DNA of 64,000 bases from the NCBI RefSeq assembly GCF_947497025.1, contig NZ_CANMFC010000001.1, positions 434,001-498,000 of the forward strand, in the 5' to 3' direction. Source of the stretch: an uncultured Kushneria sp. (GTDB taxonomy: Bacteria; Pseudomonadota; Gammaproteobacteria; Pseudomonadales; Halomonadaceae). The notes under the pieces were generated by a model. It was not told the origin of the DNA. It saw only the letters and a program-made list of their open reading frames with translations, and did not search any database. Made by a program: the position numbers and the translations under genes. Below are positions 5,307-24,562 of the stretch, one piece after another; the stretch's first letter is position 1, and each line of letters opens with the position of its first letter.

Positions 5307-5309
5307 CCC

Positions 5310-6850: not shown

Positions 6851-6869
6851 GTAAAGCTGTTTTGATTAT

Positions 6870-6900
6870 GGCCGTGCTCATTTGGGCACGGCCTTTTCTT
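6870..6900 (+). terminator. Intrinsic terminator of glyA
   Basis: GGCCGTGC (6870-6877) / GCACGGCC (6886-6893) with an 8-nt loop, followed by TTTTCTTT. It lies 20 bp after the glyA stop. Confidence 0.9.
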
Positions 6901-7486
6901 TACGTCTGTCTGACCGCCTGCCAGAACCATTTCAGAAGGCAACACGACCTTTTTTAACCCTGCCTCGGTAACGCTTGAGCCGCAGCCGATGGTGGATATC
7001 TGGTTGACGATATAGCTCAGCATGCAAGCGCTGATCACCGTTATGCTCCATCCGGCAATGGGCCTCCAGAAGGGTGTCATCCAGCCTGCATACACCTGAC
7101 GGCATCTTTCTCTACCCCGGACCTTTGCTTCATGCAGGGTCTTTTTTCGAAAGCATGTTTAGACCCCTTCGTCGCTACTTCTGATTTTTTGCGTAAATCA
7201 GGTTCTGGCACCTCTAATGAGTAGTGTTTACCGAGAGACGTAGCTCCCAAAAGCTGTGGCTATGGGTACCATGCGTGATCTGTCTGTACCAGGCCAGCCC
7301 GGGAAGTACTTCAAACCATGGGTGCGCAGCGTGTGAACGGGGTGCCCAATATGGTGGGCATGGCAATTTTGGATCCTGCATCAGGGTGCACGAAGTATTT
7401 ATCGTCATGAGCGAGCAGGGATCTCCTGGCTTGCTACAGGGCAAAACCAATTCCTTGAGGTTGCCAGACGCGGTTGCTTTGATTTT
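6901..7486. other. Gene-poor spacer with possible relics
   Basis: About 590 bp between glyA and the ligase promoter with no convincing complete gene. On the minus strand, 7095 to ~6960 can be read as a short hydrophobic peptide containing PFWRPIAGW, which resembles the opening of 3-TM phage/GTA-type holins; the reading frame then runs into the glyA terminator, so at best it is a fragment. On the plus strand GACCTTTGC / GCAGGGTC plus TTTTTT (7120-7147) looks like an orphan terminator. These hints suggest debris from an older insertion. Confidence in any single relic is low. Confidence 0.3.
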
Positions 7487-7516
7487 TTCGAATTAATAAT
7501 GGATCTTCTTTATAAT
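7487..7516 (+). promoter_or_regulatory. Candidate sigma70 promoter for the polysaccharide operon
   Basis: A perfect -10 hexamer TATAAT (7511-7516) stands in an A/T-rich run, with a weak -35 (TTCGAA at 7487-7492, 18-bp spacing). Transcription would begin near 7523, about 125 nt before the ligase start. Assigned by inspection only. Confidence 0.45.
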
Positions 7517-7648
7517 GCCGCGCGCTTAATTACTGTGCACTTTGATCTGTCATCCATATTTGCCTGAACAGTACTGACCCAACACCGTTACCCAGCTGTA
7601 TGCCCGTGACCTGGAGCAGGCAGTATTTCCATAAGAGCTTTGAAACCA

Positions 7649-8989
7649 ATGAAATTAGATATGACGACCTTTTGGCAAAAGCCTGCTCCATGGCACTGTC
7701 CTGCCTGGTTATGGTGGTCGGGAGTCATCGGCCTTGTTTTCTATGCAACCTTCCAGGTGCTTTGGCAGGATGTTGGCAAAATTGGAGAGTCTCTAACCGC
7801 CTTTCTAGGGCTGGTTGTCGTACTGCGCTATGGCCATGGCCTGCGTAACTCTACCGCTTTCTGGTTGTTGCTGGCGGCCCTGGTCGTACAGGTCATCTCC
7901 TGGGGGTTGGGTTACCTCCACCATCCCCAATGGGTGCCCGGCGACCCAAAACCTGATCGTCTTGCCAAACTGTTCATTTTTATCGGTGTGGCCTGGTGGC
8001 TGGGTGGCAGCACTCGCAATACGCTGGTGATCTGGTCGCTGGCACTTGTGGCTTTCATTATTGCCACCTTTGTTCATGGAGGCATCGATGACTGGATACA
8101 GGGGCTGCAGGGCACGCGTGTGGGGTTTGGTATCCGCAACAACCAGCATGCCTCCATGCTCTATGGCGTGGCACTGCTGGGCATTGTGATATTTGGCCGG
8201 CGCTTCGTGCATCCGGGAAGATTGATCATCTGGCGTCTCGTGCTCTGGCTGGCATTGCTACTACTGTGCTTAACGGCGCTGATGATTGGTCAGACTAGAG
8301 CAGTATGGGGAGGCGTAACCCTTGCGTTGCTTATCGCTGCTATTGGGTGGGGCGGCTGGAAAGTGTCACATTCCGGCGGTAAAGCCATCATCAAGCCGTT
8401 GATGATCGGCTTGATGGCCCTCGTTATCGTTGGTGCCATTGCTTCTGCCGTTTTCGGTAAAACGCTGCTGCAAAGGGCGACAGCTGAACACCAGGTGATC
8501 GAGCAGGTACTGGAAGGCAATCTTGATAGTGTTCCCTACAGCAGCGTTGGCATTCGAATCCACTCTTGGGTAGCGGCGAGCCAATGGATCAGTGAGCGTC
8601 CCCTGGTCGGGTGGGGTCCGGATGCGCGAGGACTGGTCATTGACCACACGCCCTGGTTGCCGGCCATGGTCAAGGATAACTTCGGCCATCTGCATAATTT
8701 CTTTATCGAGATATGGGTGGCCTATGGTCTGCTGGGTGTTGCACTGATTGCGGCGCTGGCCTTCTGGGTTGGGCGCTGTGCCTGGCTGGCATGGCGGGGC
8801 GGCATACTACCTGGCGATATGGCATTGTTTGCCGGATCATTCTTTATCTACTGGATGCTGGTCAACCAGGTCGAGTCCTATCTGTCATTCTGGACCGGTG
8901 TGTATGTGCACAATCTTGTCATTGGTGGGCTTGTCACGCATTACTGGCGCTGGAAACTGAGCTCTTTTCGCTCTCAGGCATATAAATGA
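7649..8989 (+). CDS. O-antigen ligase / Wzy-family membrane protein (WaaL-like)
   Basis: About 446 residues, largely hydrophobic, with roughly ten to twelve membrane segments. The Wzy_C/O-antigen ligase signature lies in the second half: a long periplasmic loop (~290-355) with RIHSWVAASQWISERPLVGWGPDA and HLHNFFIEIW, whose Arg and His residues are typical of the catalytic region. Such enzymes transfer lipid-linked glycans to lipid A core or to another acceptor in the periplasm. The ATG at 7649 was chosen; TTG 7640 is in frame. Its C-terminus (NLVIGGLVTHYWRWKL) is matched by the relic at 21526-21642. GC content is near that of the chromosome, unlike the next three genes. Polymerase rather than ligase function cannot be excluded. 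Confidence 0.8.
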   Translation: MKLDMTTFWQKPAPWHCPAWLWWSGVIGLVFYATFQVLWQDVGKIGESLTAFLGLVVVLRYGHGLRNSTAFWLLLAALVVQVISWGLGYLHHPQWVPGDPKPDRLAKLFIFIGVAWWLGGSTRNTLVIWSLALVAFIIATFVHGGIDDWIQGLQGTRVGFGIRNNQHASMLYGVALLGIVIFGRRFVHPGRLIIWRLVLWLALLLLCLTALMIGQTRAVWGGVTLALLIAAIGWGGWKVSHSGGKAIIKPLMIGLMALVIVGAIASAVFGKTLLQRATAEHQVIEQVLEGNLDSVPYSSVGIRIHSWVAASQWISERPLVGWGPDARGLVIDHTPWLPAMVKDNFGHLHNFFIEIWVAYGLLGVALIAALAFWVGRCAWLAWRGGILPGDMALFAGSFFIYWMLVNQVESYLSFWTGVYVHNLVIGGLVTHYWRWKLSSFRSQAYK

Positions 8990-9063
8990 ACACTTTTAAT
9001 ATGCGAATAAATCTATGTTTACACTTTGGGTGTGCGAACTTAAAATTTTTCAAGGATTGATAG

Positions 9064-10401
9064 ATGGAAATAACCATAAACACTATAGCTTTATTATCTT
9101 ATATGTTTTATGCATACAGCTTGCTTAGATGTAAAGAAATAAGCTTGAACATGACGACAGGGGTTTTCTTATGTATTAGTCTTTTTTATGGTCCGCACAC
9201 TGTAATGTTTGAACAGTTTTATCGTGAATCAAGCTTAAGTGTGTTAGATGAAAAAGTGGGGATGCATTATGCAGCATTAATGATTTTAACGTACATCGTT
9301 TTTGGGGCTGTTAATTTTTCCACAAACCATAAACTACTTACAGTTGGTAGCTGGCAAGGAGCGTTTAAAAAAAAATCAGGTGGTGGGATAGCTAACTTAA
9401 TTGTTTTAATAGTAAGCGCTCTTTTCATAGCGATAAGTATTTTGCTTCAATCTGGCTGGACGATAACCGCTGAGCATCTCAAATACCTCATCGGTTTATC
9501 AGATTACTCTTATAATGAAATAAGAAGAGAATTATATGATGGGTCTGTTTGGGGAAAATATGCGGCGCAAATAAGGTTTAGCATTATCCCTATCCTGTAT
9601 GGATACATGCTGACCCTGTCGATGTTAGAGAAAAGTAGATATAGAGTGTTTTACATTTTGATAGCCATAAGCTTGCCCATTATAACGTCAATTCAATTGA
9701 ACAAGTTTTTCTATATATACTATTTGTTTTTAACAGCGTCAATACTGTATATGTGTTTGAGTAAAAAAAGCCTTGTGTTCAATGTTAGTATTAAAAATTT
9801 AAAATTTTACGCTGGATCATTTTTTGTTTTTGGTGTTGTCATAATTATGCTGTATTTAATGCAATACAGTTCAGCGTTGAGTGGCGGTTCTTTGTCTTTG
9901 GCACAAATGATTGATACTATTATTTACAGAGCTTTTTTTGCAAGTGCCGATGCACTTAGGTTGTGGATCGATTATTTTTATTATCAATACCATCCTGCAG
10001 GGCTGCAGTCAGTTGGAAAAGTTTGTGAATTATTTTTTGACGAATGCGTTAACGTTAATACGTTGATCCCCTATCATTATGCTGAAGCTATTAATACATC
10101 AATGCAAAGTGGCTTTTTAGGTAGTATTTATTCAGTTTGGGGCGTCTTTTCTGGCCCTTTGATAATTACCTTTGTTGCTTTAATGACAGTTGCTAATAAT
10201 TTTCTCCTTTCAAAGGTTAATTATAGTTTGCTAGGTCTGGTTGCTGCTCCAGTGATGTTTATGTCTGCCTATTTTATAACTACATCAGAGTTAAATACGG
10301 CGATATTGTCAGGTGGGGGAGTTTTTAATGCGGTGTGCATATATATACTACATTTATTTATAAACAAAGAAAAAAGCGATGAAATTGATAGTATTAGCTA
10401 A
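9064..10401 (+). CDS. wzy: Polysaccharide polymerase, Wzy-like membrane protein
   Basis: A 445-residue integral membrane protein with about ten or more hydrophobic segments and no soluble domain. This, together with its place next to a flippase gene, fits a Wzy polymerase that joins repeat units on undecaprenyl diphosphate at the periplasmic face. No sharp sequence motif can be claimed, because Wzy proteins diverge strongly. AAGGA lies about 10 nt before the ATG. The gene is very A+T rich and uses AT-ending codons, unlike glyA or gmd, so it was probably acquired by transfer. Its 3' end overlaps the flippase gene by 23 bp. Confidence 0.7.
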   Translation: MEITINTIALLSYMFYAYSLLRCKEISLNMTTGVFLCISLFYGPHTVMFEQFYRESSLSVLDEKVGMHYAALMILTYIVFGAVNFSTNHKLLTVGSWQGAFKKKSGGGIANLIVLIVSALFIAISILLQSGWTITAEHLKYLIGLSDYSYNEIRRELYDGSVWGKYAAQIRFSIIPILYGYMLTLSMLEKSRYRVFYILIAISLPIITSIQLNKFFYIYYLFLTASILYMCLSKKSLVFNVSIKNLKFYAGSFFVFGVVIIMLYLMQYSSALSGGSLSLAQMIDTIIYRAFFASADALRLWIDYFYYQYHPAGLQSVGKVCELFFDECVNVNTLIPYHYAEAINTSMQSGFLGSIYSVWGVFSGPLIITFVALMTVANNFLLSKVNYSLLGLVAAPVMFMSAYFITTSELNTAILSGGGVFNAVCIYILHLFINKEKSDEIDSIS

Positions 10402-11554
10402 ACGTTTTTCTTGGGCTCTTTTAGGAAGAGTTTTTGGTGCTGTGGTTCAAGCATTAATGCTACTGTTGTATGCGAGGTGGTCAACTGTTGAAGAGTTTGG
10501 GACTACTATCTCATTAATGACAATATCTGTAGTTGCTTATGTTATAACGGATGTTGGGTTTTCACCATTTACAATTGTCGCATACGCAAAAAATGAAAAT
10601 AAAAAAGTAGAATCCATATTTTGCTATGAGAAATGGGTGTTAATATTAACGGTTGTTGTTCTTGAAATAGTTTTTTTTACTGTTGGTCATCTTATGATGA
10701 TGCTAATACCAATTTGGGCAGCTTTTGAAAAAAGAGCAGATTTGTGGTTGTGCTTAGCGCAAGCAGAAGGGGATAATAAAAAAATCTCTTATGAGATAAT
10801 AAAAAGAAGGATGTTGTCATTGGTTGTTTATATTTCGTTAGTGGGGATGAGTATAAATAATATCTACGCTTTTACGGGGGCACTGTTGGCAGGAGGGGTA
10901 TATTCATTGTGGTCGGTTTCAAAAAACAATGAAGTTTTTTTAAAAAGTAATGACGTTTCAGCGATATGTGTTTTAAAAGAGTCAGTGTTTTATTATATTA
11001 ATTCAATAGCTGCACAAATGAGGAATTTAGATGTTCCTTTGGTGAACCTTTTTGGTGGAAATGTTCAGGGGGGGATGTTTGCGATAGTTAACAGGATTAT
11101 ATCGCCTATGACAATGGTTGCAACTTCTGTAAGCATGGTCATCATGCCAGCCATAACAAAAAAAGAAATAAAAGGAGAGAAGGTGGTAAGTCTTCTTTTT
11201 TTAACAATAGTGTTGTCTAGTATACCAATAGTTGTGCTCTATTTTTTTGCGCCGTATATTACATTGGTTGTAGGAAGTAAATATCAACATGCTGTTAAGC
11301 TTATTGAGCTAACTTGTTTGGGGCTCTTTTTTTATAGCGCTGCCAATATGTTTATTTCAGTACTTCAAGGAATGAGTAAAGCTAAAGTGACAGCAAGAGT
11401 TAATATAGCCTCAAGCTGCTTGTATATAATATTAATCCCCATGGTTGCGTTGAAATTCGGTGCCATAGGAAGTGTGTGGCTTTTAAATGCCTATTTCTTT
11501 ATTTTGTTTTTAGGAAACGGTCTATTTGTTTTTCGTGAGATTGGAAAGGATTAG
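10379..11554 (+). CDS. wzx: Repeat-unit flippase, Wzx-like (MOP superfamily)
   Basis: A 391-residue membrane protein with about twelve predicted helices. The N-terminus (KRFSWALLGRVFGAVVQALMLLLYARW) and the conserved-looking DVGFSPF, NRIISPMTMVATSVSMVIMP and C-terminal helices are as in polysaccharide flippases of the MATE-like MOP superfamily. It would move the lipid-linked repeat unit across the inner membrane. It is slightly short for the family (usually 410-480 aa). It starts inside the wzy gene (23-bp overlap) and is followed after 3 bp by a glycosyltransferase, so the three are translated as a unit. The same low GC as wzy. Confidence 0.75.
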   Translation: MKLIVLAKRFSWALLGRVFGAVVQALMLLLYARWSTVEEFGTTISLMTISVVAYVITDVGFSPFTIVAYAKNENKKVESIFCYEKWVLILTVVVLEIVFFTVGHLMMMLIPIWAAFEKRADLWLCLAQAEGDNKKISYEIIKRRMLSLVVYISLVGMSINNIYAFTGALLAGGVYSLWSVSKNNEVFLKSNDVSAICVLKESVFYYINSIAAQMRNLDVPLVNLFGGNVQGGMFAIVNRIISPMTMVATSVSMVIMPAITKKEIKGEKVVSLLFLTIVLSSIPIVVLYFFAPYITLVVGSKYQHAVKLIELTCLGLFFYSAANMFISVLQGMSKAKVTARVNIASSCLYIILIPMVALKFGAIGSVWLLNAYFFILFLGNGLFVFREIGKD

Positions 11555-11557
11555 CAT

Positions 11558-12619
11558 ATGACTAAGCAGCGGCTATTGATAATACAACCAGCTATACCTC
11601 TATATAGAGTGCCTTTTTTTGAGCGTTTAAGAGAAAGCACTGTATTTAAAATAATCGCCTCCAACATGGATGAGAACGATGTTGTGAGCCGAACTGATAA
11701 TACCAGTTTTGAGAGCGTCATATTAGATGATGTAAAAAAAATAAAAGGAGTTGTTTTTCAAAGAGGGGTCCTGAAATATATTCTTCAACTTCAAAGAGGA
11801 GATGTATTGGTTATAAATGGGAATCCTAGATATATTGTTAATGTGCTAGCTGCGATGCTAGTAAAGTTAAAGGGTGTGAAAATAATATGGTGGGGGCAAG
11901 TATGGTCTGCGAATACAACCAACAATAGTTTTAGAGTAAAAAGATGGGTTATGAGATTTTTTAACGCAGTTTTGGTTTATAATGACCAAGAAGCCAGTCT
12001 CTTAAAAAAATATTTAGGAGATAAAGTGTTTTCTATAAATAACGGAATTAATAATAAAGATATTTCTATTCTTAGAAAAGAATATGATGTTTCAGCTAGG
12101 GCAGGGAATGTATTGTATATAGGGAGGCTAACTGAAAAATCAAATTTTAGTTTTTTAATCGAAGCTCTAGACAGGGTAAGCAATATCACTTTACATGTAA
12201 TAGGCAATTCTACAAACAGAGAAGATATTTATAAGCCCGATAGCAACGTGAAAGTGATTTTTCATGGAGAGCTTAATGATGAAAATAAAATATCAAATGT
12301 TGCTAATAAGTGTCTCTTCTTTATATACCCAGGGGCTGTAGGGCTTAGCTTGCTCCACGCTTTTAATTATGGGTTACCAGCTTTGATACATAACAAAAAG
12401 CATAAACATATGCCCGAAGCTAATTTGTTCGAAGAAAGAGTTAACGGGGTAAGTTTTCAATGTGATGATATAAGCGATTTGGCTAGTAAGATAATGTCAT
12501 TAAATAATCATGAGTACGATTTGGGGAGAATGTCTATTAACGCAATTTCGGCATGTGAGAATGATTATAATACTGAGGCTATGGTTGGCCGGTTTTTGGG
12601 TGCGATCAACAGCGTATAA
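11558..12619 (+). CDS. Glycosyltransferase, GT-B fold (family 4-like)
   Basis: A 353-residue cytosolic or peripheral-membrane glycosyltransferase. The N-terminal Rossmann half starts LLIIQPAIPLYRVPFFERL, typical of GTs of polysaccharide loci. The C-terminal half has VLYIGRLTEKSNFSFLIEAL (nucleotide-sugar domain start), then GAVGLSLLHAFNYGLPALI and MPEANLFEERVNG, comparable with the E-x7-E region of GT4 enzymes, though the first Glu is replaced. It adds one sugar of the repeat unit; donor and linkage are unknown. SD GGAAAGGA precedes the ATG. Low GC like wzy and wzx; followed by a hairpin terminator, so it ends the AT-rich block's first transcript. Confidence 0.75.
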   Translation: MTKQRLLIIQPAIPLYRVPFFERLRESTVFKIIASNMDENDVVSRTDNTSFESVILDDVKKIKGVVFQRGVLKYILQLQRGDVLVINGNPRYIVNVLAAMLVKLKGVKIIWWGQVWSANTTNNSFRVKRWVMRFFNAVLVYNDQEASLLKKYLGDKVFSINNGINNKDISILRKEYDVSARAGNVLYIGRLTEKSNFSFLIEALDRVSNITLHVIGNSTNREDIYKPDSNVKVIFHGELNDENKISNVANKCLFFIYPGAVGLSLLHAFNYGLPALIHNKKHKHMPEANLFEERVNGVSFQCDDISDLASKIMSLNNHEYDLGRMSINAISACENDYNTEAMVGRFLGAINSV

Positions 12620-12622
12620 TAT

Positions 12623-12645
12623 AAAGCCAACAATTGGCTTTTTCT
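12623..12645 (+). terminator. Intrinsic terminator inside the polysaccharide locus
   Basis: AAAGCCAA (12623-12630) / TTGGCTTT (12634-12641) with a 3-nt loop and a following TTC. It lies just after the stop of the glycosyltransferase gene. The 12646-12770 spacer downstream is A/T-rich and may carry a promoter for the next gene. Confidence 0.65.
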
Positions 12646-12770
12646 ATTCAGGTGACGCTAGACTTACAAGAGTTTTTCATCGAGTACTTTTGTGACATGA
12701 TTTATGTTGTGCATATCATTGCATTAGCAATTAAGTCGATGCGGTGCAGACAAATTAAGGGCTATTAGTT

Positions 12771-13850
12771 ATGAAATATGATGTGATAATGGTAGGTCCT
12801 TTTCCTCCGCCCGTACATGGTATGGCCTCCATAAATTTATGCGTTTACAATGATTTGACTCAGAAAGGAAAGCAGGTCAAATGTTTAAACACCTCTGCGA
12901 GGGATTTGAAGAGAAACTATTTTTCAAGGCTGGCAAGGTTGCCAAGAGTAATTGCTACTTTTTTTCTTTTCATAATCAATGTCGGGCAGTGTAAGAACCT
13001 TTATTCAAGCGTTTCTGGTGGAAAAGGACAGGTTTATGAGGTTTTATTTATAGCTGTAGCCCGGGCTTTTAAAAAGAGAATCTATTTGCATCATCATACT
13101 TTTTCATATCTCGATAACTATAGCCGGCTCACGATGCTTATGACCAAGGTGGCTGGTCCGGAAGCAAGGCATATTGTCTTGTCCGAAGAAATGGCTCAAA
13201 AAATGAGAGATAAGTATGGTGCAAAAAGAGTAATAGCCGTTTCAAACAGTGCCTTTCTTGTCAACAATGAAAGTGCCACCATCAAAAAAGAGCCCAATAG
13301 TGACTTAATGTCAATTGGCTTTATGAGCAATATTGCCAAGGAAAAAGGTATTTTTGAGTTTCTGGATTTTTTTATCGAAGCCAATAAAAAAGGATTGCCT
13401 ATAAAAGGGGAGATCGCTGGCCCCTTTCAGGATGATGAGGTTAAAAGCGTAGTTCTTGAGAGGCTGAAGAAGCTTCCTAACGTTGAGTATTTGGGGCCAA
13501 GGTATGGTGCGGAAAAGGAGCTTTTTTATAATGGAATTGATGTTCTTCTATTTCCGACTATTTATGCGAATGAAGCCGAGCCATTGACGATTCATGAGGC
13601 GATGAGTCATGGACTTCCGGTTATCGCTTATGGTCGAGGCGCCATACCCGAAATACTTGGTAAAGAAAGCGGTGTTGTCATTGATGTCCATCAGCCGTTT
13701 GTTAGCATTGCGTTGACACATATAGAAGAGTGGACAAAAACCCCTGTTCTTTTTAACAGGTTGTCTTGCAATGCTAGAGACACTTTTGGCAGATGCAGAA
13801 GTAGCAATATATCGATTTGGAATGAAATTAGTTCGCAGGATTTTGCTTAA
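12771..13850 (+). CDS. Glycosyltransferase family 4 protein
   Basis: A 359-residue GT4-type enzyme. It opens VIMVGPFPPPVHGMASIN, the usual glycine-rich start of GT4 acceptor domains, has HHHTFSYLDN mid-way, IGFMSNIAKEKGIFEFLDFF at the start of the donor domain, and EAEPLTIHEAMSHGLPVIAYGRGAIPEIL, the E-x7-E motif that binds the nucleotide sugar. It probably adds a repeat-unit sugar at the cytosolic face of the membrane. GC content is intermediate between the AT-rich block upstream and gmd downstream. The gene follows a terminator and a 150-bp spacer, so it may start a new transcript. Confidence 0.82.
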   Translation: MKYDVIMVGPFPPPVHGMASINLCVYNDLTQKGKQVKCLNTSARDLKRNYFSRLARLPRVIATFFLFIINVGQCKNLYSSVSGGKGQVYEVLFIAVARAFKKRIYLHHHTFSYLDNYSRLTMLMTKVAGPEARHIVLSEEMAQKMRDKYGAKRVIAVSNSAFLVNNESATIKKEPNSDLMSIGFMSNIAKEKGIFEFLDFFIEANKKGLPIKGEIAGPFQDDEVKSVVLERLKKLPNVEYLGPRYGAEKELFYNGIDVLLFPTIYANEAEPLTIHEAMSHGLPVIAYGRGAIPEILGKESGVVIDVHQPFVSIALTHIEEWTKTPVLFNRLSCNARDTFGRCRSSNISIWNEISSQDFA

Positions 13851-13881
13851 ACCTTATCTATGATTGCAGGCTGAAAATAGT

Positions 13882-15006
13882 ATGGCTATGAAAAAAGCGT
13901 TGATAACCGGTGTGACAGGACAGGACGGTTCCTATCTGGCCGAATTTCTTCTGGAAAAAGGCTATGAGGTCCATGGCATCAAGCGTCGTGCGTCTTCGTT
14001 CAATACACAACGAGTGGATCACATCTATCAAGATCCCCATGTCGAACATCAGAATTTTATTCTTCACTATGGTGATCTGACCGACTCTTCCAATCTCACC
14101 CGCATTCTTCAGCAGGTGCAGCCGGATGAGGTTTATAACCTGGGGGCACAGTCGCATGTGGCCGTCAGCTTCGAGTCGCCTGAGTACACTGCCGATGTCG
14201 ATGCCATGGGCACGTTGCGTCTTCTCGAGGCGATACGACTGCTTGGGCTGGAAAAGAAAACGCGATTTTATCAGGCCTCTACTTCCGAGCTGTACGGCTT
14301 GGTTCAGGAAACCCCGCAAAAGGAAACAACGCCTTTTCATCCGCGCTCTCCCTATGCCGTGGCAAAACTCTACGCGTACTGGATCACGGTCAACTATCGG
14401 GAAGCCTACGGTATGTATGCCTGCAATGGCATACTCTTTAATCACGAATCTCCGCGCCGGGGGGAAACCTTTGTAACGCGAAAGATCACTCGTGGGCTGG
14501 CCAATATTTCTCAGGGGCTGGAGCAATGCCTCTATATGGGCAATATGGATGCGCTTCGTGACTGGGGCCATGCAAAGGACTACGTGCGCATGCAGTGGAT
14601 GATGCTGCAGCAGGAACAGCCTGAAGACTTCGTGATTGCAACGGGCAAGCAGATTTCCGTCCGTGATTTTATTGCCATGAGCGCGAAAAACCTCGGCATT
14701 ACCCTGCGTTTTGAGGGAAGCGGTGTCGAGGAAGTGGGTATCGTTGAAGCGGTGGATGCGGAGTTGGCCCCGGGGCTTGAGTGTGGCAGTACCGTTGTGC
14801 GCGTTGATCCCCGTTATTTCCGTCCTGCCGAAGTGGAAACCCTTTTGGGTGATCCGGCGTACGCCAAAGCCAGGCTGGGTTGGGAACCTGAAATAAGTGT
14901 CGAGAGCATGTGCGCCGAAATGGTTCAGGAAGACCTGAAGGTCGCACAGCGCCATGCCCTGCTCAAGGAGTTTGGACACACGGTCACGATATCGGTGGAG
15001 AATTGA
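13882..15006 (+). CDS. gmd: GDP-mannose 4,6-dehydratase
   Basis: About 374 residues, an extended short-chain dehydrogenase/reductase that converts GDP-mannose to GDP-4-keto-6-deoxymannose, the first step to GDP-L-fucose. The NADP site is [19 protein letters not shown] near the N-terminus; the catalytic Thr and Glu are in STSELYG and the YxxxK pair is in [21 protein letters not shown] is a family mark. E. coli Gmd has 373 residues. Start ATG 13882 (a second ATG at 13888 is equally possible). It is followed after 2 bp by fcl. GC returns to the chromosomal level here. Confidence 0.96.
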
Positions 15007-15008
15007 TC

Positions 15009-15983
15009 ATGCCGGAAAATCTGGATCGACCTGTATTCGTCGCAGGCCATCGCGGGATGGTCGGCGCGGCTATCGTTCGCCGTCTGCAGGCACTGGGCTA
15101 TAGCAACATTCTGACGGCGAGCCGCAGGGAGCTGGATTTGCTGGACCAGCGAGCGGTGCTGGATTTTTTTGAAACCCATAAGATCGCAGAAGTGTATCTG
15201 GCGGCGGCTAAAGTGGGCGGGATTCATGCGAACAATACTTATCCTGCAGATTTCATTCATGAAAATCTGGTGATCGAAACCAACCTGATTCATGCCGCGA
15301 ATCAAGGCAATGTACAGAAGCTTCTTTTTCTCGGTTCTTCCTGCATTTATCCAAAGCAGGCCGAACAGCCCATGCGTGAGAGTGCGCTATTGACCGGGCC
15401 GCTGGAGCCGACCAACGAACCCTATGCACTTGCAAAGATTGCCGGGATAAAGCTGTGTGAAAGCTTTAATCGGCAATATGGGCGCGATTATCGCAGTGTC
15501 ATGCCCACCAATCTTTATGGCCCGTTTGACAACTTTCACCCGGAAAACTCTCATGTTGTTCCTGCCCTGATACGCCGCATTCATGAGGCCAAACAGCTCG
15601 GGTCTGAACAGGTCACTATCTGGGGCAGCGGCAAACCGATGCGTGAGTTCCTGCATGTCGATGATATGGCTGATGCCTGTATCCACGTCATGCAACTCGA
15701 TCAAGAGGTTTACGCTGAAGCGACGGAGCCGATGCTTTCACATATCAATGTCGGTACGGGGGTTGATTGCAGCATCAGAGAACTGGCTGAAACGCTCAAA
15801 GAGGTTATCGGCTTCCAGGGGGAGCTGGTCTTTGATACCAGCAAACCTGATGGCACGTCTCGAAAACTGCTTGATGTTTCCCGGCTCAATGCACTGGGAT
15901 GGAGTGCAGGGATCGGTCTGCATGAAGGGTTGCAGAATGCCTATCAGTGGTATTTGGAAAACATGGATCATGCAAGAACATAA
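15009..15983 (+). CDS. fcl: GDP-L-fucose synthase (GDP-4-keto-6-deoxymannose epimerase/reductase)
   Basis: A 324-residue extended SDR enzyme. It epimerises C3 and C5 of the Gmd product and reduces C4 with NADPH to give GDP-L-fucose. Visible are [14 protein letters not shown] (dinucleotide site, family form GxxGxxG), [10 protein letters not shown] with the catalytic Ser, and [13 protein letters not shown] with the YxxxK pair. The length equals that of E. coli Fcl (321). The ATG at 15009 begins 2 bp after gmd. Together the two genes say that the polysaccharide contains L-fucose or a close 6-deoxysugar. Confidence 0.96.
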
Positions 15984-15996
15984 AAATGGAATCTTG

Positions 15997-17205
15997 ATGA
16001 AGATACTGCTTTATGGGATCAACTATAAGCCTGAGCTCACGGGTATCGGTAAGTACTCGGGAGAGCTTTGCGAGTGGTTATCAAATCAGGGGCATGATGT
16101 CCGTGTTGTTACTGCACCGCCTTACTATCCTGCCTGGCAGGTAGATCCTGGCTATTCACGATGGTGGTTCAAAAAGGAAAGGGTGGAAGGCATCAGTGTA
16201 TTACGGTGCCCGTTATACGTGCCCAGGTCTCCGACCACCATTAAGCGTCTTTTTCACCTGTCTTCCTTTGCACTGACGTCCTTTTTTGGTCTGTTTTCCA
16301 ATTTACGGTGGAAGCCCGATCTGGTTGTCTTGGTAGCGCCGACGCTTTTCTGCGCCCCGGCGGCTATTTCCTTTTCCAGATTGGTTGGGGCGAAAAGCGT
16401 TATTCACGTGCAGGATTATGAAGTCGATGCCATGTTTGGTCTCGGTCTTGCCCAAAAGGGTGGGGTCGAGAAAATTGCATACAAGGTAGAACGTTATCTG
16501 CTTGATGGCTTTGATTATGTGTCCACCATTTCAAAAGCCATGTTGAAAAAAGCAGTAAACAAGGGGGTCGAGGAGAAAAAGACGGTATTTTTCCCGAACT
16601 GGTCAGAAGTATCTCGATTTAGCGATGCCATCAAAAACAATGACTTTCTGTCTGAACTTGGCATCGACAGTCAAAAAAGAATAGTACTTTATTCGGGAAA
16701 TATGGGAGAAAAGCAGGGTCTTGAATCGGTAATTGCAACTGCAGATATTCTGCGGGATCGATCGGACATACAGTTTGTCATGGTCGGAGAGGGCGGTGGA
16801 AAAAGCAAGCTTATCGAACTTGCTGAAAAACAAAAGCTGGAAAATATCATTTTCCTGCCCCTGCAACCCTATGACAAACTGCCGACTTTACTCGCCTCTG
16901 TTGATTGCCATCTGGTTGTTCAGCGTCGCGGTGCCGCTGATGTTGTTTTACCTTCCAAGCTGACGAACATTCTGGCTGTCGGTGGCAACGCGGTGATTAC
17001 GGCGGACCCGGAAACGGAGCTGGGCATATTATGTCGGGACTACCCGGGCATTGCCGAGTGTGTCGAGCCTGAATCCACTCGTGCGCTGGCCGAGGGAATT
17101 CTGAGCGCTTTGGAGAAGTCTCAACCCAATGTTGTGGCTTCAGAGTATGCGGCCAGAAATCTTGACAAGGCTCAGGTGATTCAGACCTTCTTAAACTCGA
17201 TTTGA
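15997..17205 (+). CDS. wcaI: Colanic acid-type fucosyltransferase, WcaI-like (GT4)
   Basis: A 402-residue GT4 enzyme with the WcaI opening [23 protein letters not shown], followed by [13 protein letters not shown] and [12 protein letters not shown]-like segments. In colanic acid synthesis WcaI is a presumed fucosyltransferase, and the gene directly follows fcl here as in E. coli (gmd-fcl-...-wcaI-manC). ATG 15997 was chosen because it aligns with the E. coli start; ATG 15970 in the same frame would overlap fcl. Its stop overlaps the TTG at 17202. Acceptor and linkage are inferred only by analogy. Confidence 0.85.
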
Positions 17206-17216
17206 GCACCCTAATC

Positions 17217-18626
17217 ATGTTTTTACCTGTGATCATGGCCGGTGGCTCCGGCTCACGTCTCTGGCCGCTTTCTCGCCCCCTGTATCCCAAACAATTCCTG
17301 CCGCTTGAAAATAACGGTCATACCCTGCTTCAGCAGACCGTACAGCGGCTCGAGAAGCTTGAGTATTTACCTCCCCTTTTGATCTGCAATGAGGAACACC
17401 GATTCCTTGCCGCTGAGCAGATGCGCGTCAAGGGGACTGGTCATGGTGGTATCCTGCTTGAGCCCTTCGGGCGTAACACGGCGCCAGCGATCGCCCTTGC
17501 CGCCTTGAGAAGTATGGCCAATGGTGAGGATCCCGTTTTACTGGTACTGGCAGCAGATCACTACATGGATGATGTGGCTGCTTTTCAGGAGGCCGTGCTC
17601 AAGGCTCAAATGGCGGCTGAAGAAGGGTTCCTGGTCACTTTCGGCATTCAGCCAACGCATGCTGAAACCGGCTATGGGTATGTCAAGGCTGGTAAAACGG
17701 GGGCGCAGGGTTATGCCCACATACAGTCCTTCGTTGAAAAGCCCGATGAGGTGACGGCACAGCGCTATCTGGCGGAGGGGGGATACTACTGGAACAGCGG
17801 CATGTTCATGTTCAAGGCCAGCCGTTACCTAGAAGAACTGGGCAGGTATCGGCCGGATATTCTTGAAGCCTGTCAGCGCAGCATGGCGCATGTCAGCGTT
17901 GATATGGATTTTCTTCGTATTGACGCCGCTGCTTTTGAAGGCTGTCCATCGGAGTCCATCGATTATGCCGTCATGGAGCATACCGACAGGGCTGTCGTGG
18001 TTCCCATGGAGGCCGGCTGGAGTGATGTAGGCAGCTGGTCAGCCGTTTGGGAGGTCAATGACAAGGATGACGCGGGCAATGTCAGCCATGGCGATGTGGC
18101 CCTCCATCAGAGCAGCAACTGTCTGGCGTATTCACAAAGCCGCCTTGTGAGCCTGGTTGGGCTGGATAACATCATGGTGGTAGAAACCAAGGATGCTGTA
18201 CTGGTGGCAAGCCGTGATAACGCTCAGGAGGTCAAAACGCTGGTAGAGAGGCTAAAGGCCGAGGGTCGCAAGGAAGTATTGCAACACCGTGAGGTGTACC
18301 GGCCTTGGGGGAAATATGATGCGATCGATTGCGAAGCTCGCTATCAGGTCAAGCGTATTACGGTGAATCCGGGGCAGAAGCTTTCGGTGCAAATGCATCA
18401 TCACCGCTCGGAGCACTGGGTAGTCGTTTCTGGCACTGCCCTAGTAGGTATTAACGGTGAAGAGCAGCTGGTTGCCGAAAATCAATCTGTTTACATTCCT
18501 TTGGGCGCTACACATTTCATGGCGAACCCGGGCAAGATCCCTCTGGAGCTGATCGAAGTCCAGTCAGGCGCCTACCTGGGTGAAGATGATATTGTGCGCT
18601 TTGAGGATATATACGGACGTCAGTAG
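17217..18626 (+). CDS. manC: Mannose-1-phosphate guanylyltransferase / mannose-6-phosphate isomerase
   Basis: A 469-residue bifunctional type II enzyme. The N-terminal GTP:mannose-1-P guanylyltransferase has [19 protein letters not shown], with the signature Arg and Lys, and FVEKP. The C-terminal cupin (~345-469) has [17 protein letters not shown] (metal ligands) and [10 protein letters not shown], characteristic of type II phosphomannose isomerases. It makes the GDP-mannose that Gmd uses. ATG 17217 was chosen over TTG 17202, which overlaps the wcaI stop. Normal family length (about 470-480). Confidence 0.96.
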
Positions 18627-18647
18627 TTTCACGAGGTAACCGGGGTT

Positions 18648-20030
18648 GTGGCTAACAAGGGCGTATTATTAATTGAACGAGCACCACTGCCACTGCTCGC
18701 AATGGTGCTGGATGCTATCGCTATTCTTACTGGCGGTATGGCCGCTTATTTTTATCGCTTTGGTCATTGGGATGTTGAAGAGCGTTACTTCTGGGCGCTG
18801 ACTGTCATTACCTTGCTGTTGTTGATGCTCAATAGTTCAGCGGACGCGTACCGGCGTTGGCGTACCCGCAGATTTTACGAAATTCTGTTCAAGCTATTGC
18901 TGGTGTGGGGTGGCGTGACCGTGTTTGCCACTTCCATCATCTACTTCGTTCATGTGGCTGAACGATACTCACGCCTGTGGCTGGTGCTGACAATGGCGCT
19001 TTCCCTTGGCATTGCGGTCTCTGTACGCTGGGCGGCCAGAGCCGTTCTGGCGCGCTATCGGTTACGTGGGCGCCACCGGCGCCATGTTTTCATGATTGGC
19101 CCCGGCGCTACTTTATTGAGTATTAGTCGTCATATACGAGTTCAGCAGGTCGCAGGATATTCCGTGGCTGGCGTACATCGTTTAAGCGGTGATATCGATC
19201 CAGAAAGTCTGGCCTGTATATCGCGCCGCGTTGCGAAATCCGGTTGCAGTGAAGTCTGGATATGCATGCCATTAAGCATGGGAAGCGTGGTGCAGAGTCT
19301 GATGTATGCCTTGCGCTATCAAACGGTAGAGATTCGCTTTTTTCCAGAGCTTTCTGACCTGCCACTGCTCAATCATCGGATCAGCGAAATCGTAGGGCTT
19401 TATAGCATCGACTTGAGCGTAAGCCCCATGGCCGGTGGGGCACGCCTGATCAAGCGACTGGAAGATATTGTTCTCGGCACGATTCTGTCCATTCTGGCAT
19501 TACCAGTGTGCATCATCATTGCAATCGCCATTAAATGCTCGTCTCCGGGCCCCATACTTTTCAAGCAGCATCGTACCGGGTTCAATGGAAAGCGCTTCAA
19601 GGTCTACAAGTTCCGCTCGATGAAAGTCCACAAGGAAAATGGTGGGCAGGTAACTCAGGCGAGAAAGGGGGATAGTCGTCTTACTCCGATAGGCGCCTTC
19701 CTGCGCCGCACTTCGCTGGACGAGCTACCGCAATTTTATAATGTTCTACAGGGCCGAATGTCGATTGTCGGCCCAAGGCCTCATGCCCTGGCACACAACG
19801 AGCATTACAAGGAGCTGGTGCAATCCTATATGCAGCGCCACAAGGTAAAGCCCGGTATTACGGGTTGGGCACAGGTCAGCGGCCTGCGTGGCGAAACAGA
19901 TACGCTGGAGAAAATGCAAAAGCGCGTTCAGCATGATCTCTGGTATATCGATAACTGGTCACTGAGGCTCGATTTAAAAATCATTATCCTGACCTTTGTG
20001 AAAGGGTTTATCGGCCAAAACGCCTATTAG
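18648..20030 (+). CDS. wcaJ: Undecaprenyl-phosphate glucose phosphotransferase, WcaJ-like
   Basis: A 460-residue polyprenyl-phosphate hexose-1-phosphate transferase that starts repeat-unit assembly, probably with glucose-1-phosphate from UDP-glucose. The N-terminal half has four membrane helices and a CoA-binding-like Rossmann domain (~145-250). The C-terminal catalytic domain has the re-entrant helix (~275-300), SSPGPILFKQHRTGFNGK, YKFRSM, DELPQFYNVLQGRMSIVGPRP and GITGWAQVSGLRGET. It starts with GTG, preceded by GAGG at 18632-18635. The sugar specificity (glucose versus galactose) cannot be read from sequence by eye. No wza/wzb/wzc export genes lie in the window. Confidence 0.88.
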   Translation: MANKGVLLIERAPLPLLAMVLDAIAILTGGMAAYFYRFGHWDVEERYFWALTVITLLLLMLNSSADAYRRWRTRRFYEILFKLLLVWGGVTVFATSIIYFVHVAERYSRLWLVLTMALSLGIAVSVRWAARAVLARYRLRGRHRRHVFMIGPGATLLSISRHIRVQQVAGYSVAGVHRLSGDIDPESLACISRRVAKSGCSEVWICMPLSMGSVVQSLMYALRYQTVEIRFFPELSDLPLLNHRISEIVGLYSIDLSVSPMAGGARLIKRLEDIVLGTILSILALPVCIIIAIAIKCSSPGPILFKQHRTGFNGKRFKVYKFRSMKVHKENGGQVTQARKGDSRLTPIGAFLRRTSLDELPQFYNVLQGRMSIVGPRPHALAHNEHYKELVQSYMQRHKVKPGITGWAQVSGLRGETDTLEKMQKRVQHDLWYIDNWSLRLDLKIIILTFVKGFIGQNAY

Positions 20031-20096
20031 CCGGTAGGACCGGTGTCAGGCATCAGGATGTTCGGCACCAAACTTTTAAAGGCGGAGCCCGATAGC

Positions 20097-21524
20097 ATGC
20101 AAGTTGATTTGATTCTGAAACATTCAAACGTTGCCTTCGGCACCAGCGGCGCGCGCGGCCTTGTAGAACATTTCACTGACGATGTCTGTGCGGCATTCAC
20201 AGTTGCATTCCTGAGTCTGATGCGTGACCAGGAAGGCGCTTCAAGCGTTGCTATCGGGTTTGACCGTCGGCCGAGCAGCCCGGCCATGGCAGCCGCCTGT
20301 ACCGCTGCGGCGCGCGGTATAGGCTTTGAGGTTACCGATTACGGGGTTTTGCCGACGCCAGCCCTGGCGCTACAGGCAATGATCGATGGCGTGCCCGCTA
20401 TCATGATCACTGGCAGCCATATTCCCTTTGATCGTAACGGCATCAAGTTTTACCGACCTCAGGGGGAAATTACCAAGCAGGATGAGCAGGCTATTCTTGA
20501 AGTCTCAGCGCCGCTGCCCGAGCTGAATAGCGTTGCCCGTGGGCCGGAAAGCGATGAGGCACGCACCCGCTATATCGCACGCTATGTTGAATGGTTTGAG
20601 GGAAAACCGCTTGCCGGCAAGCGAGTTGGGCTTTACCAGCACTCGGCTGCCGGTCGTGATCTTAATGCACAGGTACTTGAAGCGCTGGGCGCTGATGTGA
20701 TCGTGCTGGGTCGCAGCGAGCAGTTTGTGCCGGTGGATACGGAAGCCGTCAGTGAAGAAGATCGCCTGCAGGCACGCCAGTGGGCGCGTGATCACAATCT
20801 GGATGCACTGCTGACCACGGATGGCGATGGTGATCGCCCGCTATTGGCCGATGAGCGGGGAGAGTGGCTGCGTGGCGACATTCTGGGGCTTCTGTGTGCT
20901 CGTGAACTGCAGATACAGGCTCTGGCTGTCCCCGTCAGCTGCAATACTGCCATCGAAGTCAGTGGTGTCTTTAACAAGGTCATGCGCACCCGTATTGGCT
21001 CTCCTTATGTGCTTGAGGACATGGCGCTGCTGTCTGATCAATACGATCGGGTAGCCGGTTTTGAGGCCAACGGTGGTTTTCTGCTGAACACGACCCTTGA
21101 AAAGGGAGATCGTCGGATGACGGCACTGCCGACGCGAGATGCGCTTTTGCCTGCCCTGTCCCTGATGGTGGCCGCCTCGCATCGCCAGCAGCCACTGTCA
21201 GCGCTTGTTGCCGACCTGCCGGAGCGCTATACCGCCAGTGACCGGTTGAAAGCGTTTCCTGTTGAGCACAGTCAATCGCTGCTTGCCGAGTGGTCAGCTC
21301 ACCCCCGGAAAATGTGTCATACCTTGGGGTTGAAAGACGCCCTCCATGAAACGGATATGACGGATGGTTTACGTGTGACGCTGGAAAATGGCGACATTAT
21401 CCATTTGCGCCCCTCTGGTAACGCCCCTGAATTGCGCTGCTATGTCGAGTCGGCAAGTTGGGAAAAAGCGCAGGATCAGGTGGCCCATGTATTGAGTCGT
21501 CTAAGAGAAATATCCGGGATTTAA
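20097..21524 (+). CDS. manB: Phosphomannomutase
   Basis: A 475-residue enzyme of the alpha-D-phosphohexomutase family that converts mannose-6-P to mannose-1-P, feeding ManC. Visible are FGTSGARGL at the N-terminus, the phosphoserine loop ITGSHIPFDRNGIKFY, the Mg site DGDGDRPLL, the sugar-binding GFEANGGFLLN (usual form E-A/N-N-G) and the phosphate-binding RPSGNAPELRCYVE. ATG 20097 has GGCGGAG 10 nt upstream; GTG 20043 and ATG 20058 are in frame but would add a region between wcaJ and the SD. It ends directly against the ligase relic at 21526. Confidence 0.92.
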   Translation: MQVDLILKHSNVAFGTSGARGLVEHFTDDVCAAFTVAFLSLMRDQEGASSVAIGFDRRPSSPAMAAACTAAARGIGFEVTDYGVLPTPALALQAMIDGVPAIMITGSHIPFDRNGIKFYRPQGEITKQDEQAILEVSAPLPELNSVARGPESDEARTRYIARYVEWFEGKPLAGKRVGLYQHSAAGRDLNAQVLEALGADVIVLGRSEQFVPVDTEAVSEEDRLQARQWARDHNLDALLTTDGDGDRPLLADERGEWLRGDILGLLCARELQIQALAVPVSCNTAIEVSGVFNKVMRTRIGSPYVLEDMALLSDQYDRVAGFEANGGFLLNTTLEKGDRRMTALPTRDALLPALSLMVAASHRQQPLSALVADLPERYTASDRLKAFPVEHSQSLLAEWSAHPRKMCHTLGLKDALHETDMTDGLRVTLENGDIIHLRPSGNAPELRCYVESASWEKAQDQVAHVLSRLREISGI

Positions 21525-21525: not shown

Positions 21526-21642
21526 AACCTTGTTGTCGGCGGCCTGATAACCCATGACTGGCGCTGGCAGCTACAGGTGAAACATGAAAATACTCCGGAA
21601 TCGCCTTCTATAAACGTCATCAAAGAGAGTACGGCACTTTAA
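21526..21642 (+). pseudogene. 3' relic of a second O-antigen ligase-like gene
   Basis: Directly after the manB stop an open frame of 38 codons plus TAA reads NLVVGGLITHDWRWQL and then a polar tail ending STAL. The intact ligase at 7649-8989 ends its last membrane helix with NLVIGGLVTHYWRWKL: 12 of 16 residues agree, and the distance to the stop is similar. It has no start codon and no upstream part, so it is the cut-off C-terminus of a divergent ligase gene. The next glycosyltransferase begins 2 bp after its stop, which suggests that this gene once followed a full ligase gene. Confidence 0.8.
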
Positions 21643-21644
21643 TC

Positions 21645-22784
21645 ATGCGCACCCTGATTGTGGTAAGAAGCCTGAAAATGGGAGGCATGGAGAGAGTCGC
21701 TGTCAATCTGGCCGATGCCTTTGCCGATGAAGGCCATGACAGTCATCTTCTGGTCTTTCGCAGGCGCAAACAGGGGCTTTCCCCTTCCAGTCCGGCAGTT
21801 AAAACCCATCACTTTCCACTGCGCTGGTGGTTGCGCCTGACCGGTGTTGGGTTGCTTATCGAGTTCATCTCACGGCTGTTGCTGAATCCATTGATCCGGC
21901 GGTCCCATTTTGTCTGGACCGGCTATCTGGGCGGGTACCTTTTCAAGGCGTGGCTTAAATACTTTGAACGCCGGCACGGTCGGCTGGATCGCATCATCTT
22001 TCGAGGGATCGGCTCCTTTGAAATGGTCTGGACCTTTCGTGATGAGCGCGCCAGATTCGTGCTGGAGAATACGCTGCCTCAGGATGTGAATGCTCGTCAG
22101 TACCAGCTGTTTTCGCGCTGTCTATTTCACGACAAGCATCTGGTCGCGGTCTCGGGAGGGGTGAAGGCGTCGATCGAGGAGTCGCAGGCGATCTGGAAGT
22201 TCAAACCGGCCGCCATTTCCGTCATCGTGAACCCCTGCCCGATACGTCAGATTCGTCAGCTCATGGAGGAAGACATTCCGGATATTCCCGACGAGCGATT
22301 TATCGTCAATGTGGCACGTCTTGTACCGCAAAAGGATCAGGCGCTATTGCTGCGTGCCTATGCCATGTCCGGTCTGCAGGAAAGGCTGGTCATGGTCGGT
22401 TCCGGGCCGCTGGAACATGATTTGAAGCGGCTCTCCCGGGAGTTCGGGATAGAAGACCGGGTGATGTTTGCCGGCAACAGGAACAACCCCTATCCCTTCA
22501 TGAAGCATGCTCGCCTGCTGGTTCTGAGCTCGCGTGTTGAAGGCATGGGCATCGTTTTGTTTGAAGCGCTGGCCTGTGGAACACCCGTGGTGTCGGTTGA
22601 TTGCAGGGGCGGTATACGCGAAATTCTCAAGGGTGAACTTGAGGATTCGATCGCGGCCAGAAATGAACAAGCGCTGGCAGAAAAGCTGAAGGAAAAAGTG
22701 GCAGGCGATAAACCGGTGATCAAGGAAGCCTGGTTAAAGGACTTTCTACCAGGTCAGGTGGTGCGTCGGTTTTTGGAAATCTAG
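21645..22784 (+). CDS. Glycosyltransferase family 4 protein
   Basis: A 379-residue GT4 enzyme. The acceptor domain begins TLIVVRSLKMGGMERVAVNLADAF; the donor domain begins IVNVARLVPQKDQALLLRAYA; and SSRVEGMGIVLFEALACGTPVVSVDCRGGIREIL carries the E-x7-E motif. It resembles LPS core or O-chain glycosyltransferases of the WaaG/WabH type, which fits an ancestral neighbour gene coding a ligase. The ATG is 2 bp after the stop of the ligase relic, so the original translational coupling is preserved. Donor sugar unknown. It is the last gene of the locus, followed by a strong terminator. Confidence 0.85.
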   Translation: MRTLIVVRSLKMGGMERVAVNLADAFADEGHDSHLLVFRRRKQGLSPSSPAVKTHHFPLRWWLRLTGVGLLIEFISRLLLNPLIRRSHFVWTGYLGGYLFKAWLKYFERRHGRLDRIIFRGIGSFEMVWTFRDERARFVLENTLPQDVNARQYQLFSRCLFHDKHLVAVSGGVKASIEESQAIWKFKPAAISVIVNPCPIRQIRQLMEEDIPDIPDERFIVNVARLVPQKDQALLLRAYAMSGLQERLVMVGSGPLEHDLKRLSREFGIEDRVMFAGNRNNPYPFMKHARLLVLSSRVEGMGIVLFEALACGTPVVSVDCRGGIREILKGELEDSIAARNEQALAEKLKEKVAGDKPVIKEAWLKDFLPGQVVRRFLEI

Positions 22785-22806
22785 GAACGAACCCGTTCTG
22801 TTCCAC

Positions 22807-22840
22807 AAAAAACGGCACCCCGCGGGGCGCCGTTTTTTTA
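22807..22840. terminator. Bidirectional terminator between the glycosyltransferase and mqo
   Basis: AAAAAACGGC-A-CCCC / GGGG-C-GCCGTTTTTTT (22807-22839) with a tight GC-rich loop. The A-tract and T-tract allow it to end both the polysaccharide transcript (plus) and the convergent mqo transcript (minus, stop at 22859). Confidence 0.9.
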
Positions 22841-22858: not shown

Positions 22859-24562
22859 TTAGACGTTTTCAACCGTCTCGGTCGCTTCTTCGCTGTCAGC
22901 ATCGTCGGCCTGCTCGCTGCCGGGTTCCTGACCGCGGGCGCGGGCCTTGAAGGTTTCAAGGCGCCCGACGTTGCCAGCCGTGGGCTGCGTGTCATCGAGC
23001 TCCAGAACGCTGCTGGTGTAGGCACGTACCGCGTTGATCATTTCCGGGTTGCCATTCAGCGTCTGGCCGTAGGACGGAATGATGCGGCTGAGCTTTGACT
23101 TCCATGCGTTGGACTCAAGCTCTTCCGGGAAGATCTTCGCCATTAGACCCAGCATGATGGTCGGTGACGTGGAAGCCCCCGGTGAGGCGCCCAGCAGGGC
23201 AGACATGGTACCGTCTTCAGAAGCGACGACTTCGGTGCCAAACTGCAGCACGCCGCCTTCGTTATCCTTGTCCTTGATGATCTGGACGCGCTGGCCGGCG
23301 GTGATCAGTTCCCAGTCATCGCGCTTGGCTTCGGGGAAGTAGGCCTTGAGGGCTTCAAAGCGATCTTCCTCGGACTGCATCACCTGGCCGACCAGATACT
23401 GCACCAGATTAAAGTTATCCATTCCGACCTGCATCATGGGCACGGTGTTGTGCGTCGTCAGCGAGCCGAACAGATCCGTCCAGGAGCCTTCCTTCAGGAA
23501 TTTGGTCGAGAAGGTGGCAAAGGGACCAAACAGCAGGCGCGGCTTACCATCCAGCATGCGGCGGTCCAGATGCGGGACCGACATCGGGGGGGAGCCTTCC
23601 GCGGCCAGGCCGTAGGCCTTGACGTCATGACGGGCGACCACCTCGGGGTTGCTGGTCACCAGGAACTGCCCGCCCACCGGGAAGCCGGCATACTGTTCGG
23701 CCTCGGGAATACCGGATGCCTGCAGCAGCGGCAGGGCGGCGCCACCGGCGCCGATAAAGACGTGGCGTGCATTGACGCTGTGCTCGCTGCCGTTGTCGAG
23801 ATCGGCAATGGTGACTTTCCAGGTGCCGTCATCGTTGCGATCGAGGCCGCGGACTTCACTGCCGGTGCTCAGAGTGAAGTTCTCGTGCTTCTGGTCCAGC
23901 GCGCTGATGAGCTGACGCGTGACTTCGCCCCAGTTGGCATCGGTCCCGGCCTTCATATAGGTGGCCGCCACATGCTGGGAATCGTCACGGCCGGCCATCA
24001 TGGCCGGGACCCATTGACGCAGCACTTCAGGGTCTTCCGTGTACTCCATGGCGTCATAGAAGGCGTTTTGATGCATGCCTTCATAGCGCTTGCGGAGAAA
24101 ATCGACGTTGTCATCCCCCCACACAAAACTGACGTGCGGTGTGTTGTTGATAAAGGAGGAGGGGTCGTGCATGACGCCATTGAGAATCTGATAGGACAGA
24201 AACTGGCGAGTAATTTCAAAGGCTTCAGTAATTTTCGGCGGCCGCGAAACATCCACGCTGCCATCTTCAAGCTGCGGGGTATAGTTCATTTCGCAAAAGG
24301 CGGAGTGTCCGGTGCCGGCATTGTTCCAGCCGTTGGAGCTTTCCTCGGCGACATTGTCCAGGCGCTCGTACAGATTGACCTTCCAGTCGGGCTGAAGCTC
24401 TTCCAGATAAGTGCCCAGTACGGCGCTCATGATACCGCCGCCGACCATGACAACGTCTACGGTGTCGTCACTGCTGGTCGTGGTACTGCTTTCAGAGGCC
24501 AGAGTATAGCCTGAGACCATGCACAGGTTCATGCATAGCGCTGCTGTTAAATGTTTTTTCAT
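22859..24562 (-). CDS. mqo: Malate:quinone oxidoreductase, long type with signal-like N-terminus
   Basis: A 567-residue FAD enzyme that oxidises malate to oxaloacetate and passes electrons to the quinone pool at the inner membrane. It has a hydrophobic N-terminus (~5-22), then the FAD site VVMVGGGIMSAVLGTYLEEL (~37-56) and the Mqo hallmark ESSNGWNNAGTGHSAFCEMNYTP. It is closest to the E. coli-type Mqo. The final ~25 residues are strongly acidic (many Asp and Glu), a feature common in halophiles. The gene stands alone and converges on the polysaccharide locus, sharing its terminator. A second, unrelated-looking malate:quinone oxidoreductase gene is at 61017-62486. Confidence 0.95.
   Translation of the reverse strand: MKKHLTAALCMNLCMVSGYTLASESSTTTSSDDTVDVVMVGGGIMSAVLGTYLEELQPDWKVNLYERLDNVAEESSNGWNNAGTGHSAFCEMNYTPQLEDGSVDVSRPPKITEAFEITRQFLSYQILNGVMHDPSSFINNTPHVSFVWGDDNVDFLRKRYEGMHQNAFYDAMEYTEDPEVLRQWVPAMMAGRDDSQHVAATYMKAGTDANWGEVTRQLISALDQKHENFTLSTGSEVRGLDRNDDGTWKVTIADLDNGSEHSVNARHVFIGAGGAALPLLQASGIPEAEQYAGFPVGGQFLVTSNPEVVARHDVKAYGLAAEGSPPMSVPHLDRRMLDGKPRLLFGPFATFSTKFLKEGSWTDLFGSLTTHNTVPMMQVGMDNFNLVQYLVGQVMQSEEDRFEALKAYFPEAKRDDWELITAGQRVQIIKDKDNEGGVLQFGTEVVASEDGTMSALLGASPGASTSPTIMLGLMAKIFPEELESNAWKSKLSRIIPSYGQTLNGNPEMINAVRAYTSSVLELDDTQPTAGNVGRLETFKARARGQEPGSEQADDADSEEATETVENV

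Follow-up and report, generated by a model that had tools for sequence, protein, structure and literature searches.

The locus and its genes

The window, the whole stretch of 64,000 nucleotides from an uncultured Kushneria sp. that was analysed here, carries a polysaccharide locus between glyA and mqo. An FtsX-like gene, tupA and glyA form the left flank, and mqo and the genes at 25898 and 26978 form the right flank. These flanks are shared with Kushneria phyllosphaerae and eight other Kushneria genomes, with tupA undetected in G002, G006 and G008, and mqo undetected in G002 and G008. K. phyllosphaerae EAod3 (NZ_ONZI01000003.1; G005, loci L061 and L065) is the nearest genome carrying the locus. 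The features are as follows.

5588..6850, + strand: glyA (serine hydroxymethyltransferase), closing the left flank
6847..12769, + strand: block with no in-place counterpart in K. phyllosphaerae, encoding a ligase, an orphan protein (9064), a flippase-like protein (10379) and a glycosyltransferase (11558)
7640..8989, + strand: intact Wzy_C-type ligase, 449 aa, TTG start as listed, PF04932 E = 4.9e-16
12770..21511, + strand: block shared with K. phyllosphaerae at 90.5% DNA identity, with a glycosyltransferase, gmd, fcl, a WcaI-like glycosyltransferase, manC, wcaJ and manB
20043..21524, + strand: manB-like phosphomannomutase, its stop codon being the left end of the proposed deletion
21526..21642, + strand: ligase scar, the terminal 38 codons plus stop left from a lost Wzy_C-type O-antigen ligase gene
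21645..22784, + strand: GT4-type glycosyltransferase, former neighbour of the lost ligase
22859..24562, - strand: mqo, right flank of the locus

Outside the shared block the window is also collinear with K. phyllosphaerae over 1-6846 (86-87% DNA identity, with a short gap at 3850-4069) and over 21626-28198 (80%). Where the window has 6847-12769, K. phyllosphaerae holds 11.3 kb of other sequence, and among the four proteins of the window's block only the ligase has a match there (80 kb compared), at another place. The G+C content is 34-36% from 9 to 13 kb, and the low-G+C genes 9064-12619 lie inside the differing block. One of them, at 9064-10401 in a stretch of 34% G+C, encodes a 445-aa orphan protein with no Pfam or NCBIfam match; across 196 genomes it was found in its own genome and as a partial hit in G071 (7.4e-4). 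By its position it could be guessed to be a candidate polymerase (Wzy). In the shared block, the open reading frames 13864-15006 (gmd), 14910-15983 (fcl) and 15583-17205 (WcaI-like glycosyltransferase) overlap in the list of frames. In the last of these the family match begins only at residue 139, which probably puts the real start near 15997 and makes the longer frame an artefact.

The gene at 7640-8989 is the single Wzy_C match in its own genome, where a search with the ligase sequence likewise gave one match, and lies 12.5 kb from the scar. It is 56-57% identical to the complete ligase of K. phyllosphaerae described below, and in a ligase tree the two join with weak support (91/76). It is a homologue of the lost gene and a putative replacement for it. 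The family PF04932 includes both ligases and polymerases, and it is their family together with their position and context that suggests naming both genes ligases rather than polymerases. The K. phyllosphaerae gene passes the Wzy_C family cut-off; an NCBIfam search matched neither gene, and a PDB sequence search with the window's ligase gave no match up to E = 1. A first reading made from the sequence only had placed this ligase at 7649-8989; the listed frame starts earlier, at the TTG at 7640.

A ligase tail between manB and the glycosyltransferase

The scar is a frame of its own, of 38 codons and a stop and with no in-frame ATG within 21526-21642. It sits exactly where the sequence-only reading had put it, with a single base between it and the end of manB at 21524 and 2 bp between its own stop and the glycosyltransferase ATG at 21645.

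That reading had also matched the 38 codons to a ligase C-terminus, and blastp-short recovers the same 12 of 16 identical residues between scar residues 1-16 and positions 425-440 of the window's ligase. Across codons 1-19 the two agree at 34/57 bases and 12/19 residues; at this level of DNA agreement the scar is, as had been proposed, a diverged homologue and no fresh copy. It is closer to the tail of the K. phyllosphaerae ligase, with 16/19 residues and 43/57 bases the same over scar residues 1-19. Clear alignment is limited to these first ~19 codons, and the remaining tail varies among ligases.

A profile hidden Markov model (HMM) was built from 29 full-length ligases, including those of the window and K. 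phyllosphaerae and excluding the scar. In a search of 22,815 six-frame fragments from the window and the comparison loci, the scar scored 26.1 bits (E = 3.7e-6) over HMM positions 420-443 and was the best fragment other than large parts of ligase genes. Among 11,694 fragments of Kushneria loci its E value was 1.9e-6. When the 38 residues were shuffled 20,000 times, no shuffle scored above 8.2 bits, while the real scar scored 24.8; hmmsearch gave scores for 13,063 of the 20,001 sequences. The search against ligase proteins thus bears out the resemblance, although Pfam gives no match for the 38 residues, PF04932 (Wzy_C) included. Pfam is silent because the Wzy_C match covers residues 206-370 of the ligase and the part equivalent to the scar begins at residue 425. 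The observation is confirmed: the scar is a remnant of a member of the Wzy_C/O-antigen ligase family, and is not itself a member.

An intact counterpart is found in K. phyllosphaerae, where the gene order is gmd, fcl, a glycosyltransferase, manC, wcaJ, manB, a complete ligase of 466 aa (L065:18600-20000), a glycosyltransferase and mqo. The window has this order with the scar in place of the ligase. The glycosyltransferase at 21645 is 89% identical to its K. phyllosphaerae orthologue, the ligase stop in K. phyllosphaerae lies 2 bp before the glycosyltransferase start, and the stop-TC-ATG junction is identical in the two genomes. A full ligase therefore stands directly before a glycosyltransferase of the 21645 type in a relative, in agreement with the ancestral ligase-glycosyltransferase pair that the sequence-only reading had proposed. 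The alignable flanks of the K. phyllosphaerae ligase run to window 21511 (position 458533 there) and resume at window 21626 (459983). Relative to K. phyllosphaerae the window lacks 1,309 bp that reach from the manB stop as far as ligase codon 425. As these ends are estimated against another species, the limits of the deletion would be approximate. The two loci share gene order, flanks and the orthologous glycosyltransferase; they differ in that K. phyllosphaerae has a complete ligase, and an unrelated 11.3-kb block after glyA with no ligase in it.

The substitution pattern bears on the age of the loss. Over the 57 alignable bases the scar and K. phyllosphaerae differ at 14, of which 11 are synonymous and three non-synonymous, whereas non-synonymous changes make up an expected 77% of possible changes (binomial P = 2e-5). 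This test covers 19 of the 38 scar codons; the other 19, which need gaps, were excluded. In the neighbouring intact glycosyltransferase, taken as a control, codons 1-100 have a share of non-synonymous differences (8/42) like that of the scar (3/14), which argues that the scar was mostly coding since the lineages split. DNA identity to K. phyllosphaerae is lower in the scar (75%) than at the start of the glycosyltransferase (86%). Much of the scar's divergence seems to have accumulated when the ligase gene was still working, and the loss looks recent relative to the split between the window and K. phyllosphaerae.

The ligase-glycosyltransferase pair and the loss of its ligase

Among the matches listed, full-length glycosyltransferase homologues of at least 49% identity occupy 44 places, including the window and with G106 and G033 counted twice; partial matches, such as that in G015, were excluded. 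For the ligases, matches down to that in G062 (E = 1.8e-40) were used, leaving out weaker and mostly partial ones. At 16 of the 44 listed places a ligase lies directly upstream on the same strand, 36-126 bp away by match coordinates, and all 16 belong to the window's own family. In seven of 15 junctions (G046, G033, G010, G048, G059, G095 and G079) the ligase stop overlaps the glycosyltransferase start codon. The two genes are adjacent in the opposite order in G065, G020 and G055, and convergent in G027, G042 and G085. In G015 the glycosyltransferase is split over two contigs, and a same-strand ligase lies 244 bp upstream of its first part. Judged from these sequences, the pair is a widespread unit in the Halomonadaceae, and there are good grounds for placing it at this site before the deletion. 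In this locus, K. phyllosphaerae is the only one of the nine other Kushneria genomes with the pair (the locus of G006, on two contigs, was read in part), so the evidence for the earlier state comes from K. phyllosphaerae and from other genera.

Remnants were also looked for, over at least some 1.5 kb of upstream sequence, at the 28 listed glycosyltransferase places (the window among them) with no ligase directly upstream. The window has one and G098 weakly so; other short fragments reached at most 8.0 bits and E values of at least 1.1 (reported to E = 10). The idea of the scar as a common feature was rejected on this count. The G098 fragment (L098, G098:C1, 1691-1858, + strand; 14.0 bits, E = 0.017) may be a second ligase-tail remnant; it lies upstream of the homologous glycosyltransferase on the opposite strand, and the match is weak.

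The reading we favour, at a probability of roughly 85%, is that the resident ligase was deleted in place, and that the loss was tolerated most likely because the exchanged block carries a ligase of its own. The ancestral locus would have had the order manC-wcaJ-manB-ligase-glycosyltransferase-mqo, as K. phyllosphaerae still does. The block after glyA would then have been exchanged, bringing in the ligase at 7640-8989 and making the two ligases redundant. An in-place deletion of ~1.3 kb, beginning at the manB stop codon and reaching ligase codon 425, would have taken nearly all of the resident gene and left its last 38 codons directly before the glycosyltransferase, with manB and the glycosyltransferase intact. 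The left ligase would now be the putative enzyme attaching O-antigen to the lipid A core. We infer both this functional replacement and the order in which exchange preceded deletion; the events may also have run in reverse, with the ligase lost first and restored later.

The sequence-only reading was right that the scar is what remains of a second, diverged ligase, and that a ligase-glycosyltransferase pair once stood there (K. phyllosphaerae; 16 of the 44 listed places). It had the pair cut by the arrival of an imported 7.6-21.5 kb cassette with its own ligase, the right end of which broke into the resident ligase, and this mechanism is disfavoured, as 12770-21511, with most of manB, is collinear with K. 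phyllosphaerae. Import would explain why the scar lies directly 3' of manB and why the left ligase sits beside low-G+C genes. A suitable donor is conceivable, since in G009 a homologous manC-wcaJ-manB is followed directly by mqo, with neither ligase nor glycosyltransferase, and identity to K. phyllosphaerae drops to 78% over the last 250 bp of manB. However, the shared block is more similar to K. phyllosphaerae than either flank, manB is followed by the intact ligase there, so that the manB-ligase order is shared, and a homologous cross-over within manB would leave the ligase whole. The block without a counterpart ends at 12769. The two ligase ends are not supported as cassette borders; the left border is about right, but the right one falls 8.75 kb before the scar. 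Since the shared part includes both manB and the scar, in-place deletion is preferred, and import is an unlikely account. Recombination between the two ligase genes was considered as well and rejected, as it would have removed the sequence that lies between them.

The tail could also be a functional leader, kept as the translation-initiation region of the glycosyltransferase through a coupled stop and start. The junction common to the window and K. phyllosphaerae is in keeping with this, as are the stop/start overlaps in nearly half of the junctions, which point to translational coupling of the pair. Yet the scar frame has no ATG to start from and, by eye, no clear ribosome site, making coupling unlikely; the middle of the tail has diverged, with indels relative to K. 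phyllosphaerae; and a random deletion sparing the glycosyltransferase start would give the same picture. We regard a retained leader as improbable, to much the same degree as import. Far less credible is a chance similarity, or an ordinary spacer in which no ligase was ever present. The shortness of the clear alignment and the lack of a Pfam call would suit it, but the HMM and shuffle results speak strongly against it, as does the intact ligase at the very same place in K. phyllosphaerae.

Possible ligase turnover in Kushneria and published parallels

The place of the ligase differs between Kushneria lineages. Eight of the ten genomes have a ligase-type gene in one of three places. In G001, G002, G003, G004, G006 and G009 it is on the minus strand immediately before glyA, in the window it lies just after glyA, and in K. 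phyllosphaerae it fills the gap between manB and its partner glycosyltransferase. The minus-strand ligases are 33-36% identical to the window's ligase. G007 and G008 have no ligase just before glyA; the single Wzy_C protein of G007 is encoded at another point of the locus, and that of G008 on a different contig. Matches to Wzy_C above the Pfam cut-off number one per genome in nine of the ten Kushneria and two in G009. Neither the window nor K. phyllosphaerae has a ligase before glyA or an HMM-detectable remnant there. A remnant of the minus-strand ligase between tupA and glyA was sought in both with the HMM to E = 5 and rejected; nothing but the full-length ligases was found, apart from one chance-level fragment of the window at 25577-25873 (E = 4.7) that lies outside the gap.

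O-antigen ligases are usually regarded as tied to the conserved core. From the ten genomes, we tentatively suggest, as a possibility that is rather less probable than its opposite, that the O-antigen ligase of Kushneria is exchangeable within the serotype locus, with lineages switching both its place and its lineage together with antigen type, and that the scar catches a recent switch. If this switching is true, the ligase would be paired with antigen type and not with the core alone; and if the ligase moves with the antigen cassette, the locus would allow the matching of ligase to antigen type to be tested. A single remnant is by itself ordinary. This one can be read as a footprint of surface-antigen gene turnover in which the intact relative, the remnant and the replacement candidate can be aligned gene by gene.

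Of the published cases found, the nearest parallel is Salmonella group B1 with its remnant of wzy. This group arose from group B2: a new wzy was gained outside the cluster and the original wzy later decayed to a remnant (PMC3715488). As may be the case in the window, a chain-assembly gene of the O-antigen cluster became a remnant once another gene serving that step had been acquired at a different site, and the remnant tells the order of events (PMC3715488). In Salmonella the gene is the polymerase wzy, the new copy lies outside the main cluster and several serial deletions and IS elements are involved (PMC3715488), whereas the window has a ligase, a 56-57% homologue as putative replacement at the opposite end of its locus and apparently one deletion. 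A complete gene is retained at the place of the scar in one of the nine other Kushneria genomes, K. phyllosphaerae.

Halomonas and Kushneria belong to the same bacterial family. An O-antigen gene cluster of Halomonas bluephagenesis has waaL at its boundary, with a sugar-phosphate transferase; laboratory work removed this cluster and complemented it, and the text examined describes no remnant (PMC9232590). A literature search for ligase remnants, the Kushneria O-antigen and ligase replacement returned no description of the locus in the literature searched.

Another sequence feature next to a ligase 3' end was seen in G006. Here a 71-bp exact direct repeat of the last codons of the ligase (L140, G006:C8, 4068-4138 and 5250-5320) flanks a two-gene module, as if the module had been inserted next to the end of the gene. 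The first protein of the module has no significant Pfam match; the module also encodes a RES-domain protein, and is presumably of toxin-antitoxin type.
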